Positions 4,621-36,065 of a stretch of 64,000 bases of DNA are shown here, one piece after another; the first letter of the stretch is position 1, and each line of letters opens with the position of its first letter. Where the stretch lies: NCBI RefSeq assembly GCF_000155595.1, contig NZ_DS989904.1:814477-878476 (forward strand). The letters are read 5' to 3'. This DNA is from Synechococcus sp. PCC 7335 (GTDB lineage Bacteria > Cyanobacteriota > Cyanobacteriia > Phormidesmidales > Phormidesmidaceae). Position numbers and translations under genes: made by a program. The notes beneath the pieces are model-generated. The model was not told the origin of the DNA. It made no database searches and saw only the letters and a list, made by a program, of their open reading frames with translations.

Positions 4621-5835
4621 CTATGTCCAGTACAAGATTTTCGCGTTGGTAAAATTCTGTTCTATCTTCTCTTCAAAGAAACTACGCAACGCCTGTGTGG
4701 TGTCTTTATCGTAAACATATTTGATGCCGCCAAATTTGTTGCGCTTTGTCGTTCGTGAGTCCATTTGCATGTCTAGCTCACTGTTGGGATACCATTCGTT
4801 TAGTACCTGCTTTGATTTAGCGGTAAATCGATGGGTGATTAGCTCAAACGTCAGATCGCACTCAAAATCTATAGCAGTAGCAATCTCTTCGAGTAGCTGA
4901 GTGTAGCTGTCTCTCCAATCTTCAAAGGCCATGATCGGCGCGATGACAAAACCGATAGGGTAGCCACCGCCGCCCTGCGATTTTGGTAGTGCCAAAGTTC
5001 TTAATGCTTGAATGCGATCGCTCACACTTGCTGTTCCACCTTCAAACCCCTTCGACACCGGATTAGCATTAATGCTTACGCGGCATCGAGTCCGCCCATT
5101 ATGTTCAATCTCTAGCAGCGGTTCGACATTGTTAAATTTCGAGACCCAGCGGAGGTGCTTGCGTGGCTGTGTACCAAAGTAACGAATACACTCTCCCAAA
5201 CTACCTGTTAGATGCTCTAGGCTCAGTGGGTCAGTGTAGCAGCTAACCTCAAAGCTCGTAGACGCGCTGTCTTCTTTGATAAAGCGGTCGGTATTTTCCA
5301 AGATAGCAGGAAGGTTGGCATAGACTCGAATCACCGGAGGCCCCGAAAGACTGCTGGCCAAATAGCAATATTGGCAGTGCGCCGGACAGCCTTCTGCTAG
5401 ATGAAATTGCCAGTCGGCGGAAGGCGGAATTGGCTGTAGCTTGAACTGTCCTGGTGGCGCAGTGACCACGGCCATTGTCTGCTTGGCTTTGGCGTAGGTT
5501 TCGCGTTCGTCTTTGCCCCGCAGCCCGGTAATTCGGTTGCTTTTCAGCTCGGTGATCGATAGGCCCAGATCGCTCACCCTTTGGTATATCTGCTGTCCCC
5601 ACGCTTCTTCCAAAGCAGCAGGGGTAAATAGCACCTGACGAGGCTTCCACAGACGGGCCTGACCCGATTGGCCACTCGCTTGCTGAGTATGTGAGGCGAA
5701 AGAGACAGCCTTCTGAAAGATCCCTTTCTGAGCAGTCCCTTCGTAGCTAGACGCTTTCGAATATATCTGCTGGTTGATAGCAAGATCTTGAACAGAGGCA
5801 GGCGTGATTAGAGCGCTGAGATCTTCGGACGACAT
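4621..5835 (-). CDS. SPL-family radical SAM protein
   Basis: Protein of 404 residues. The cluster-binding motif C-P-A-H-C-Q-Y-C (C150, C154, C157) has the CxxxCxxC spacing of radical SAM enzymes, and the surrounding LAEGCPAHCQYCYLA matches the spore photoproduct lyase (SPL)-like family. A 4Fe-4S cluster and S-adenosylmethionine are expected cofactors. Later segments (SFEVSCYTDPLSLEHLTG, RVSINANP, YPIGFVIAPIM) fit the barrel of that family. Cyanobacteria do not sporulate, so DNA photoproduct repair is not established; the substrate is unknown. The gene stands alone and is followed by spacer DNA. Confidence 0.75.
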   Translation of the reverse strand: MSSEDLSALITPASVQDLAINQQIYSKASSYEGTAQKGIFQKAVSFASHTQQASGQSGQARLWKPRQVLFTPAALEEAWGQQIYQRVSDLGLSITELKSNRITGLRGKDERETYAKAKQTMAVVTAPPGQFKLQPIPPSADWQFHLAEGCPAHCQYCYLASSLSGPPVIRVYANLPAILENTDRFIKEDSASTSFEVSCYTDPLSLEHLTGSLGECIRYFGTQPRKHLRWVSKFNNVEPLLEIEHNGRTRCRVSINANPVSKGFEGGTASVSDRIQALRTLALPKSQGGGGYPIGFVIAPIMAFEDWRDSYTQLLEEIATAIDFECDLTFELITHRFTAKSKQVLNEWYPNSELDMQMDSRTTKRNKFGGIKYVYDKDTTQALRSFFEEKIEQNFTNAKILYWT

Positions 5836-8225: not shown

Positions 8226-8702
8226 ATGGCAGAGCCCTCCACTTCACCAAACTCCCATCCAATGGCAGAGTTAGTTTTACCCAGTCCGATTCGACGATAT
8301 TTCGAAACTGCGAACGCGGGTGAGTTTGGGCAGATGGCAGGTTTATTTGTAGAAGAGGGACAGCTCATACCACCTTTTGAGAAGCCTATTGTAGGGAGAA
8401 AGGCGATCGCTCAGTATCTAACTTCCGAAGCGACTGGGATGAGATTTACACCTTTAGACTATGAAGCCCTTGGTCGTGACACCTTTGACCACGAAACTCT
8501 CGATTTAGAAGAGTCTAAGACTGACACTTCAGGATCATCTCAGCAATTATCCCCACACTCTCTCGTCAGAGGAAAAGTTAAAACACCACTTTTTGTAGTC
8601 AACGTCGCTTGGGAATTTGTGCTTAATGAGACTCAACAGATAGTGAGTGTAAAGGTCAAGCTCCTAGCAAAACTGAACGAACTGCTAAAACTAAGATCAT
8701 AG
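8226..8702 (+). CDS. CTDH: C-terminal-domain homologue of orange carotenoid protein
   Basis: Protein of 158 residues (152 residues from a second in-frame ATG at 8262 would not change the alternative by much: 146). It is an NTF2-like fold protein matching the regulatory domain of OCP: IRRYFETANAGEFGQMAGLF, then PPFEKPIVGRKAIAQYL, and NVAWEFVLN near the end, followed by VKVKLLAKLNELLKL. The Tyr in RRYFET and the Trp in NVAW occupy places where OCP has its carotenoid-contacting Tyr and Trp (my alignment). CTDHs bind and transfer carotenoid. Oddities: it contains no cysteine, whereas characterised CTDHs can form Cys-linked dimers, and it has a longer Ser/Glu-rich loop (about residues 85-110) than OCP. 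The HCP gene lies 348 bp downstream. Confidence 0.85.
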   Translation: MAEPSTSPNSHPMAELVLPSPIRRYFETANAGEFGQMAGLFVEEGQLIPPFEKPIVGRKAIAQYLTSEATGMRFTPLDYEALGRDTFDHETLDLEESKTDTSGSSQQLSPHSLVRGKVKTPLFVVNVAWEFVLNETQQIVSVKVKLLAKLNELLKLRS

Positions 8703-8908
8703 CGACGAGAAGATCAACTGTAATAGCAGTCCTAAAGGTACAATCTGGCTACTTCAGACGTAAGAGATTATTGGTATTCTTGTTCTATCTTCAGAAGGTC
8801 GTATTCAGACGATGCGATTCACTACATTAAGGACAAGCGAGCAATTCTTAAGTACTTCTTATAAGAGGCTTCTCACAAAACATATTGTTCTCATAAAGTG
8901 CGTTGAAA

Positions 8909-8935
8909 GACCTGTCCTAGAGATGAGAGGTTTTT
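8909..8935 (+). terminator. Possible weak terminator after the CTDH gene
   Basis: The sequence acctgtc-ctagagat-gagaggt followed by ttttt can form a 7-bp stem with one internal mismatch and a T run. It lies 207 bp after the CTDH stop and 115 bp before the HCP start, so it may separate the two transcription units. The stem is short and the call is weak. The rest of 8703-9050 holds no gene that I can support. Confidence 0.3.
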
Positions 8936-9050
8936 AGCAACTGTTTGAAGTGCAAACAATTAGAATGAGAAAAATCAAAGCAAGAAGAAAGTTGAGCGCG
9001 TTTAGCTTACCAAATTAAGTTTGCAAATACGTTTGCAAGGAGATAATTCT

Positions 9051-9503
9051 ATGGCCACTGCTGCCGACTACACAACATCACAGAAAGAACAAAAGCAACG
9101 GTTTGACGCGCTAAGCGCCGACGAGAAGCTAGCGACTCTGTGGTACGTATATGAAGGGTTAGGCGAAGAGAGACTTGAAAACCCTGATGATAATAAGGAG
9201 TCAGACAGCTCTAGCGATCTGTACAACCAGATTAAAGAGAAGTCTAAAGAAGAACAGCTTCAATTCATGCGCGATGTCCTCTCTGGTGAGGGGAATGATT
9301 TAACCAATGCGTACAACAATTTAAGCAATACTACAAAGATCGCGCTTTGGTATCGTTTAGGACAGGGTATGGCAAAAGGATCTGTTATTCAAGTTCCTGG
9401 CGATTATAGTCTATCCAACGATGCCCAACAGCTAGTTAGCGCCATCAACGAGATGAGCTTTGAGCAGAGTTATCTCTTCGTTCGTGATGCTATCGTTGGC
9501 TGA
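9051..9503 (+). CDS. HCP: helical carotenoid protein (OCP N-terminal-domain paralogue)
   Basis: Protein of 150 residues. The start is the ATG at 9051, preceded by the ribosome site AAGGAGA (9038-9044) at a good distance; an upstream TTG frame extension is rejected. It is a helical domain matching the OCP N-terminal carotenoid-binding domain: RFDALSADEKLATLWYVYEG at the front, and NTTKIALWYRLGQGMAKGSV plus VPGDYSLSNDAQQLVSAINE in the second subdomain. The W-Y-R-L-G signature of the family is present. HCPs bind a keto-carotenoid and act in singlet-oxygen quenching or photoprotection; this one has no attached regulatory domain. With the CTDH upstream it forms the split equivalent of OCP, in reversed order. 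Which HCP clade it belongs to needs a tree. Confidence 0.85.
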   Translation: MATAADYTTSQKEQKQRFDALSADEKLATLWYVYEGLGEERLENPDDNKESDSSSDLYNQIKEKSKEEQLQFMRDVLSGEGNDLTNAYNNLSNTTKIALWYRLGQGMAKGSVIQVPGDYSLSNDAQQLVSAINEMSFEQSYLFVRDAIVG

Positions 9504-34206: not shown

Positions 34207-34689
34207 CTACGCTTCCTCAACCCGACAGCGACTTTCATTTAGTTGTTCAATCTTGGCCTGCCGCTCGGCAATCACCTGATCCAAAGCAGGCCGTCCTGTC
34301 ACTGCCAGCCGCCAGTCAGCCCATATGTCATACAGCTTGTCTATCACCGGGCCAATAACTGGCCACTTGGTCGGTGCATACATCCAGCCGATGCCAAGCG
34401 CGTCATACACTTCTTGAAAAACAGCCACGTTTTTGACAACGGTACCGTCAGCGCGAACCGCATGAATACGGCCCATTGCCGTTTCAAAATCGACACCACC
34501 ATTTTCTTCGGGGCTGTAGTCCAAATCCGCAATATCTGTAAATTTGACAATACCGCGTCCAGCGTCCTTTTTTTGTAGAAAGTTGACTTCTCTCACGCAT
34601 AGCGGACAAGCACCGTCGTAGAGTAGATTAAGTTTCCAGTCACTGGTATCTGGGGTTTGGCGGCTAGATTTTGTAGCTGAGAGCGTCAT
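34207..34689 (-). CDS. DCC-family (DUF393) thiol-disulfide oxidoreductase-like protein
   Basis: Protein of 160 residues. The diagnostic N-terminal motif is LLYDGACPLCVREVNFL, with the CPLC pair in place of a thioredoxin CxxC. Later conserved parts are KFTDIADLDYSP, MGRIHAVRADGTVVKNVAVF and YAPTKWPVIGPVIDKLYDIW. DCC proteins are presumed redox-active; no substrate is known. It is a single gene, convergent with the preceding outer-membrane-like gene. Confidence 0.85.
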   Translation of the reverse strand: MTLSATKSSRQTPDTSDWKLNLLYDGACPLCVREVNFLQKKDAGRGIVKFTDIADLDYSPEENGGVDFETAMGRIHAVRADGTVVKNVAVFQEVYDALGIGWMYAPTKWPVIGPVIDKLYDIWADWRLAVTGRPALDQVIAERQAKIEQLNESRCRVEEA

Positions 34690-35420: not shown

Positions 35421-36065
35421 CTATGCCTGAAGCTTGTGGCATCTGCCAACTGATAACGTACCGGTAGAACATTCACTTAGACAGGATTGAGTCATCACTT
35501 CGTCTTCATCAGCGGCTGGTGGCACCCGACCAAACACCATCTCGCAGCTTAGATCTTCAAAATTTGGAATCATTGTCAAAGGAATACCAAACTTCTCGGT
35601 GAAAAAGGTTTGGGTAGGTAGTTTGCACATGTTGACGCACATGCCGACGCACTGACTTTCCTCTAGATAGCGGCACTTTTTGATGTGGACGGCGCTGGGT
35701 TGCGATCGCACCTCTCCATCCAACCCTTTCACCTCTGCCTGCGCTACTTCACACGGTCCGACTAGCCACTCAAACATCTGCGTCGCAAACCAGGCATTTA
35801 GGACGCACACCAGTCGAGTTGGCGAGAAAACAGTACGAATTACCCATAGTACCGGAGCCGGAACCAGAGATTGCAGCACCCTTGCAACAGCGGCCTGCTG
35901 CTCTTGAGCATTGCGTCCCTGCATAATCTGTTTAGAAAGATCAACAAATCCTTCGTAGCCTGTGGCCGCTGTTGTTGAACCGATAGCGTTGGCCATTTTT
36001 CGAGAAAACAGCCAAATAAACAGCCGATCCAACAGATTGTCTTTATGTGCTTCAACCGTATGCAT
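35421..36065 (-). CDS. D27-like beta-carotene isomerase domain protein (DUF4033)
   Basis: Protein of 214 residues. The C-terminal DUF4033 signature is very clear: KKCRYLEESQCVGMCVNMCK, LPTQTFFTEKFGIPLTMIPN, FEDLSCEMVFGR. These cysteines and the N-F-E-D-x-S-C-E block match plant DWARF27, an iron-containing all-trans to 9-cis beta-carotene isomerase. Related bacterial proteins act on carotenoids, but the substrate here is not proven. The N-terminal part is helical (FIWLFSRKMANAIG). It is the only obvious carotenoid enzyme in the window besides the carotenoid-binding HCP/CTDH pair. Confidence 0.85.
   Translation of the reverse strand: MHTVEAHKDNLLDRLFIWLFSRKMANAIGSTTAATGYEGFVDLSKQIMQGRNAQEQQAAVARVLQSLVPAPVLWVIRTVFSPTRLVCVLNAWFATQMFEWLVGPCEVAQAEVKGLDGEVRSQPSAVHIKKCRYLEESQCVGMCVNMCKLPTQTFFTEKFGIPLTMIPNFEDLSCEMVFGRVPPAADEDEVMTQSCLSECSTGTLSVGRCHKLQA

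Follow-up and report, generated by a model that had tools for sequence, protein, structure and literature searches.

Within the window, by which we mean the whole 64,000-nucleotide stretch of DNA analyzed, a CTDH gene (8226..8702, + strand; 158-aa ORF) is followed on the same strand by an HCP gene (9051..9503; 150 aa), with 348 bp between the CTDH stop and the HCP ATG. The first encodes a one-domain protein with the NTF2 fold, homologous to the C-terminal domain of OCP, and the second a stand-alone homolog of the OCP N-terminal domain, on two separate ORFs and not in one chain as in OCP. A sequence-only reading had proposed two genes matching the OCP domains in reversed order at this spacing, and sequence, fold and contact residues all bore this out. 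Had they been NTF2-like and helical proteins of some other kind, the reading would have failed; the best PDB sequence and structure matches were instead CTDH and HCP, and we regard the identification of both as secure.

The CTDH, the HCP and the DNA between them

For the CTDH, the top PDB match in phmmer was Anabaena CTDH (6s5l; E 6e-20), ahead of all OCPs. Generic Pfam NTF2/SnoaL models scored just below their cut-offs, so that Pfam alone would not be sufficient to name the protein. The AlphaFold model (pLDDT 83.7) had Anabaena CTDH for all of its best PDB structure matches, and sequence, model and structure comparison thus agreed on a stand-alone homolog of the OCP C-terminal domain. By alignment, Tyr25 (8298..8300) and Trp129 (8610..8612) correspond to OCP Tyr201, a contact of the carotenoid carbonyl, and OCP Trp288, and both positions were invariant in the CTDHs compared (Y in 165/165 and W in 165/165, window CTDH included). 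The carotenoid-contact roles of these two residues are described in the part of PMC6123778 consulted here, which also gives a four-residue shortening relative to OCP as a CTDH feature; the window CTDH is likewise shorter than OCP by four residues beyond position 103 (F-VVNVA-W versus F-GAAVGMNIA-W).

The loop before the core strands was said in the sequence-only reading to be longer, which held when lengths were compared between two fixed alignment points: 40 aa in the window CTDH, 44 in Cf. Phormidesmis sp. LEGE 11477 and 31 in Phormidesmis priestleyi Ana, the three longest of the set (median 19 aa), the window CTDH ranking second. The lengthened segment (residues about 83-110; 8472..8555, + strand) is acidic and Ser-rich, and it is probably flexible, given the low AlphaFold confidence across it.

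Cysteine is absent from all 158 residues, as had been claimed, and Phe123 (8592..8594) aligns with the disulfide-forming Cys103 of Anabaena CTDH. Its value as a distinguishing mark was overstated, however. Across 165 CTDHs, position 103 was occupied by Phe in 126 cases and by Cys in 37, with Val and Leu seen once each, and 77 of 166 CTDHs were free of cysteine over the compared stretch. The split is also already published (PMC7512017 and PMC6123778): CCP1, or clade 1, carries Phe (at 105), and CCP2, or clade 2, carries Cys. A clade-1 CTDH of T. elongatus without Cys103 is described in the latter. A cysteine-free CTDH was therefore ruled out as a novelty, and since Phe103 is both common and the mark of a known class, the missing cysteine is ordinary and does not set the locus apart. 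The window CTDH has the Phe at 103/105 of CCP1/clade 1, a placement by residue state, and lacks the Cys103 disulfide of CCP2/clade 2. It shares with clade-1 CTDHs such as that of T. elongatus the Phe in place of Cys103, the four missing residues and the Tyr/Trp contacts, but its loop is about 20 residues longer.

The HCP matched Pfam Carot_N (PF09150; E 3e-35, 121.6 bits against a cut-off of 25) as a stand-alone domain. A good AAGGAG ribosome-binding site (9037..9042, + strand; read from the sequence) precedes the ATG at 9051 in a region conserved in LEGE 11477, and an alternative, longer reading would start from a TTG at 9021. The best PDB sequence matches were HCP1 (5fcx; E 6e-25) and HCP4 (8qx5; E 1e-24), and the best structure matches of the AlphaFold model (pLDDT 80.5) were HCP4, HCP1 and HCP2, also OCP. 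The all-helical fold of the OCP N-terminal domain is kept, along with Leu37, Trp41, Tyr44, Trp110, Tyr111, Met117, Pro126, Tyr129 and Arg155 (OCP numbering, anchored on the Trp41 motif), residues at carotenoid-contact positions. Where HCPs and OCP normally carry PAAPGA, the window HCP has ENPDDNKESDSS (9177..9212, + strand; alignment columns 53-57), with ENPDDN in the position of that segment, and the protein stops before Met161; the carotenoid pocket may therefore differ. Anabaena HCP1 (PDB 5fcx/5fcy), the best PDB sequence match, has a similar fold and similar aromatic contacts, but it is about 33% identical and retains the PAAPGA motif and the C-terminal end that the window HCP lacks. Fremyella HCP2 (PDB 6mcj) resembles it in fold (TM 0.85) and in having an altered PAAPGA, but is 29% identical and lies on a separate tree branch.

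Compared with LEGE 11477, dN/dS was about 0.17 for the CTDH (0.24/1.35) and about 0.03 for the HCP (0.068/2.06), figures which are rough because dS is saturated, yet far below 1, and both genes look to be under purifying selection.

The 348-bp gap suggests separate transcripts for the two genes. Part of it is conserved with LEGE 11477 (8740..8865 in the alignment, with the blastn match extending to 8857) and may serve the HCP gene as promoter or leader. Between CTDH and HCP, no Rfam match was obtained up to E 0.1, no terminator was found, promoter-like matches were at chance level and ORFs were only 22-41 aa. The corresponding intergenic region of P. priestleyi Ana has a short accaaccgaccgag-like tandem repeat (L072, 4600-4660).

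The nearest named relatives at the locus were LEGE 11477, Leptolyngbya sp. BC1307 and P. priestleyi Ana. Pairs in the same order were present in three Phormidesmis-group genomes, namely the window, LEGE 11477 and P. priestleyi Ana. LEGE 11477 also shares a DUF815 gene upstream, and none of six other window genes sought in the 4-kb flanks of the P. priestleyi pair was found there; the linkage of the pair has apparently been kept in differing surroundings. Within the genus, Leptolyngbya sp. BC1307 has a CTDH with no HCP neighbor, in L. foveolarum an HCP4-like gene precedes the CTDH in the ordinary way, and in one further genome (G005) the CTDH lies near a contig end, with its downstream side out of view.

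Partner type, gene order and HCP lineage

Gene order was surveyed in a census of 166 distinct, untruncated CTDHs, chosen for their resemblance to the window CTDH or, in part, to two other CTDHs with non-HCP4-like partners; among the matches listed, those given a locus or fetched were taken. As the loci were picked by similarity, the proportions are not population frequencies. No HCP was seen in the flank at 96 loci, where flanks were mostly 1.5-2 kb (nine of these 96 have <600 bp on one side); the HCP was upstream on the same strand at 58, divergent at 7 and downstream at 4, and one locus was a broken OCP (L219), which was omitted from the residue comparison of 165. Among the 69 CTDHs with an HCP neighbor, the order sorted with partner type: every HCP4-like, and hence OCP-related, partner was upstream and co-directional (58/58), compared with none of the other partners (0/11). 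All partners at these 11 loci, the window included and here called second-kind, scored best as the group holding HCP1 and HCP2; seven of them were HCP1-like, and all 11 second-kind CTDHs had Phe103. Because order sorts with partner type, the reversed order of the window pair is informative. Three of the four downstream loci belong to the window, LEGE 11477 and P. priestleyi Ana; the fourth (L180) comes from a genome in a different family (G212).

At the divergent CTDH/HCP1-like loci (L107/L223, L149, L171, L188, L206, L246 and L247) the gaps were 71-222 bp, and the two genes might share a two-way promoter. For T. elongatus, an order of CTDH before HCP was considered and set aside, as two loci from what look like members of that genus (L150 and L151, for which the genus label is a guess) show HCP before CTDH.

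In the first profile scoring, the window HCP and its two relatives, together with L107, were inside the training set of the HCP1/HCP2-holding group (gB), and the scoring was rerun without them, with unchanged outcome. With the leave-out profiles, the seven divergent partners scored 251–271 bits for HCP1 versus 176–188 for HCP4-like, and the downstream partner L180 scored 206 bits for the whole HCP1/HCP2 group versus 182. For the window HCP and its two relatives, the whole group gave 125–154 bits (with or without two neighboring sequences, L118 and L119) versus 109–113 for HCP4-like. The window HCP itself scored 148-154 bits on the HCP1/HCP2 side, 113 for HCP4-like, 123 for HCP1 and 132 for HCP2. 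The window pair belongs to the rarer arrangement, and its HCP is probably not of the usual antenna-quenching type.

The clades of HCPs are reportedly those defined by Melnicki 2016. Near-identical rows were dropped before trees were built, leaving 77 of 104 for the first HCP tree, 124 of 167 for the first CTDH tree and 69 for the second CTDH tree. For the second HCP tree, the OCPs were cut to 3 and the HCP4-like rows to 7, and one long row was omitted; the third also went without the long-branched rows L058, L066, L064 and L065. The window, LEGE 11477 and P. priestleyi HCPs formed one clade (support 100/98–99) with L118 and L119 as nearest relatives (98–99/96–97), and this trio fell within the HCP1/HCP2 side in all three trees (100/100, 85/87 and 99/100). 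AU tests did not reject grouping the window lineage with HCP4-like proteins (p 0.095), with HCP4-like proteins plus OCP (p 0.24) or with HCP1 (p 0.10). Given the long branch and these unrejected alternatives, the lineage receives no HCP class label; the window HCP and its two relatives make up a divergent, long-branched lineage, for which the trees favor the HCP1/HCP2 side. In a class search of 388 genomes, no HCP with >43% identity was found outside the three genomes with the pair, among the matches listed.

A single clade of second-kind CTDHs was rejected (p-AU 0.008), and a single clade of second-kind HCPs likewise gave p-AU 0.022 (9 rows). Mapped on the CTDH trees, partner type required 4 parsimony changes in the first and 5 in the second. 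Since second-kind CTDHs are not one clade and their partner changed 4 to 5 times, second-kind pairs seem, on these trees, to have arisen several times. The window CTDH itself was near second-kind CTDHs of family f24 in one tree (92/89) and near the HCP4-paired CTDHs of its own family in another (90/89).

Proposed carotenoid transfer and its alternatives

Comparable pairs of adjoining HCP and CTDH genes, in which the CTDH loads the HCP, are HCP4-CTDH of Anabaena PCC 7120 and HCP5-CTDH1 of Euhalothece (ezr2074-ezr2075; PMC6971039). Both have an HCP4/5-like HCP, which the gene numbers place upstream, whereas the window HCP follows its CTDH and falls, by tree, on the HCP1/HCP2 side; Anabaena CTDH furthermore carries Cys103 where the window CTDH has Phe. 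The Anabaena CTDH is All4940 (PDB), and its HCP4 presumably bears the tag All4941.

We consider it reasonably probable that the window CTDH acts as loader and the neighboring HCP as acceptor of a ketocarotenoid, in a second-kind pair without a redox lock. The CTDH would draw ketocarotenoid from the membrane and hand it to the HCP of the next gene; with Phe103 in place of the cysteine, no disulfide would lock the transfer, and the loaded HCP would hold the pigment as a soluble quencher or carrier, though probably not as an HCP4/5-type phycobilisome quencher. This reading draws on the folds, contact residues, linkage, low dN/dS and partner sorting given above, on published CTDH and HCP behavior and on expression classes in Fremyella. 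According to PMC6123778, Anabaena CTDH pulls canthaxanthin out of membranes and supplies it to HCP1 and HCP4, which are unable to extract carotenoid unaided; the Cys103 disulfide blocks transfer, and the T. elongatus CTDH without Cys103 forms a dimer only with carotenoid present. HCP4 and HCP5 are described as quenching phycobilisomes, HCP2 and HCP3 are reported as oxidant quenchers and HCP1 is proposed as a carrier (PMC12059629, PMC6971039 and PMC6123778, from the parts used), and in Fremyella hcp1–3 and ccp2 are placed in one expression class (PMC8739951, likewise in part). From these sources we infer carotenoid binding, the direction of transfer and the physiological role of the pair, and transfer is the function with the best support. 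Counting against it are the 348-bp gap, the altered PAAPGA segment and missing Met161 end of the HCP, and the alternative groupings left standing by the AU tests.

Traffic could instead run in reverse or both ways, with the HCP as a soluble carrier able to return pigment to the CTDH. HCP1, alone among Anabaena HCP1–4, returns carotenoid in vitro to CTDH-C103F, a Phe103 protein like the window CTDH (PMC6123778, in the section consulted), and this would suit a set of second-kind loci in which most partners are HCP1-like and every CTDH carries Phe103. The window HCP is not clearly an HCP1, however, either in the tree or by its profile scores, which are higher for HCP2 than for HCP1, and we consider this alternative unlikely.

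About equally improbable, in our judgment, is that the genes are neighbors by descent only, an unpaired CTDH beside a lineage-specific HCP with no shared work. Such a view fits the width of the gap, which has no operon signal, the different rates at which CTDH and HCP evolve, and related CTDHs in the genus for which no HCP neighbor was seen (L071/L012, and L014, which is near a contig edge). It fits less well with a linkage kept in three genomes, apparently in different surroundings, and with the recurrence of second-kind pairs over 5 parsimony changes.

The sequence-only reading spoke of a split OCP pair, a name that fits loosely at best. Both domain homologs are there, but the OCP-like partner is the HCP4/5 type, an identity that the three trees and the profiles did not favor for the window HCP. 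An OCP-like heterodimer acting as a light switch, with a single carotenoid shared between CTDH and HCP, is the least probable of the alternatives: although heterodimers can form from isolated OCP domains (PMC12059629, in the part used), CTDH with HCP is reported as full transfer and not sharing (PMC6123778), the window CTDH is without four residues present in OCP just beyond position 103, and the host already carries three OCPs and two FRPs. Its 6.0-Mb genome has one CTDH and five Carot_N matches, these being the three OCPs, one HCP4-like HCP without a CTDH neighbor (C1:601735) and the window HCP, and each FRP gene is close to an OCP. Two tandem OCPs are followed by an FRP, and the third OCP lies beside the second FRP on another contig (G000:C2:564761-568048 and C1:417761-419168; L001-L003, L221 and L222).

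Returning to transfer from a loader CTDH, a wider picture can be put forward tentatively, as a possibility that we hold to be somewhat doubtful. Cyanobacteria may have two CTDH-HCP systems: one with an upstream HCP4/5 for phycobilisome quenching, and a repeatedly assembled one with a Phe103 CTDH and a downstream or divergent HCP1-side HCP, which would carry carotenoid or quench oxidants with no redox gate and of which the Phormidesmis version would combine a new HCP lineage with a CTDH bearing a lengthened acidic loop. CTDH is said to be needed for HCP loading, yet discussion of gene pairs has usually centered on HCP4/5 with CTDH; a second pairing that recurs gives a hint as to the HCP that each CTDH serves, and the HCP1-like divergent pairs and the Phormidesmis pair are ready material for tests of the direction of transfer. 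In the literature searched, we found no account of an HCP1-side HCP lying downstream of a CTDH, or divergent from it, as its partner, although Melnicki 2016 and Muzzopappa 2017 may hold one.

Other genes in the window

The D27-like gene that had been noted elsewhere in the window was confirmed (35424-36065, - strand; Pfam D27-like_C, E 4e-39). A link to the pair was discarded, the gene being 26 kb away with no evidence of a connection. Its product, possibly a carotenoid isomerase, is encoded near a gene for a DCC1-like thiol-disulfide oxidoreductase (34210-34689). At 4621-5835 (- strand) there is a gene for a protein of the spore photoproduct lyase family (320 bits to Pfam SPL); cyanobacteria are not known to form spores of the kind this enzyme family serves. 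Finally, the ORFs at 41033-61252 (- strand), read by eye, look like a catecholate siderophore cluster, with candidate genes for an NRPS, isochorismatase-like, DHB-AMP ligase-like and isochorismate synthase-like proteins, a dehydrogenase, an exporter, a TonB receptor, an AraC-type regulator and an RND pump.
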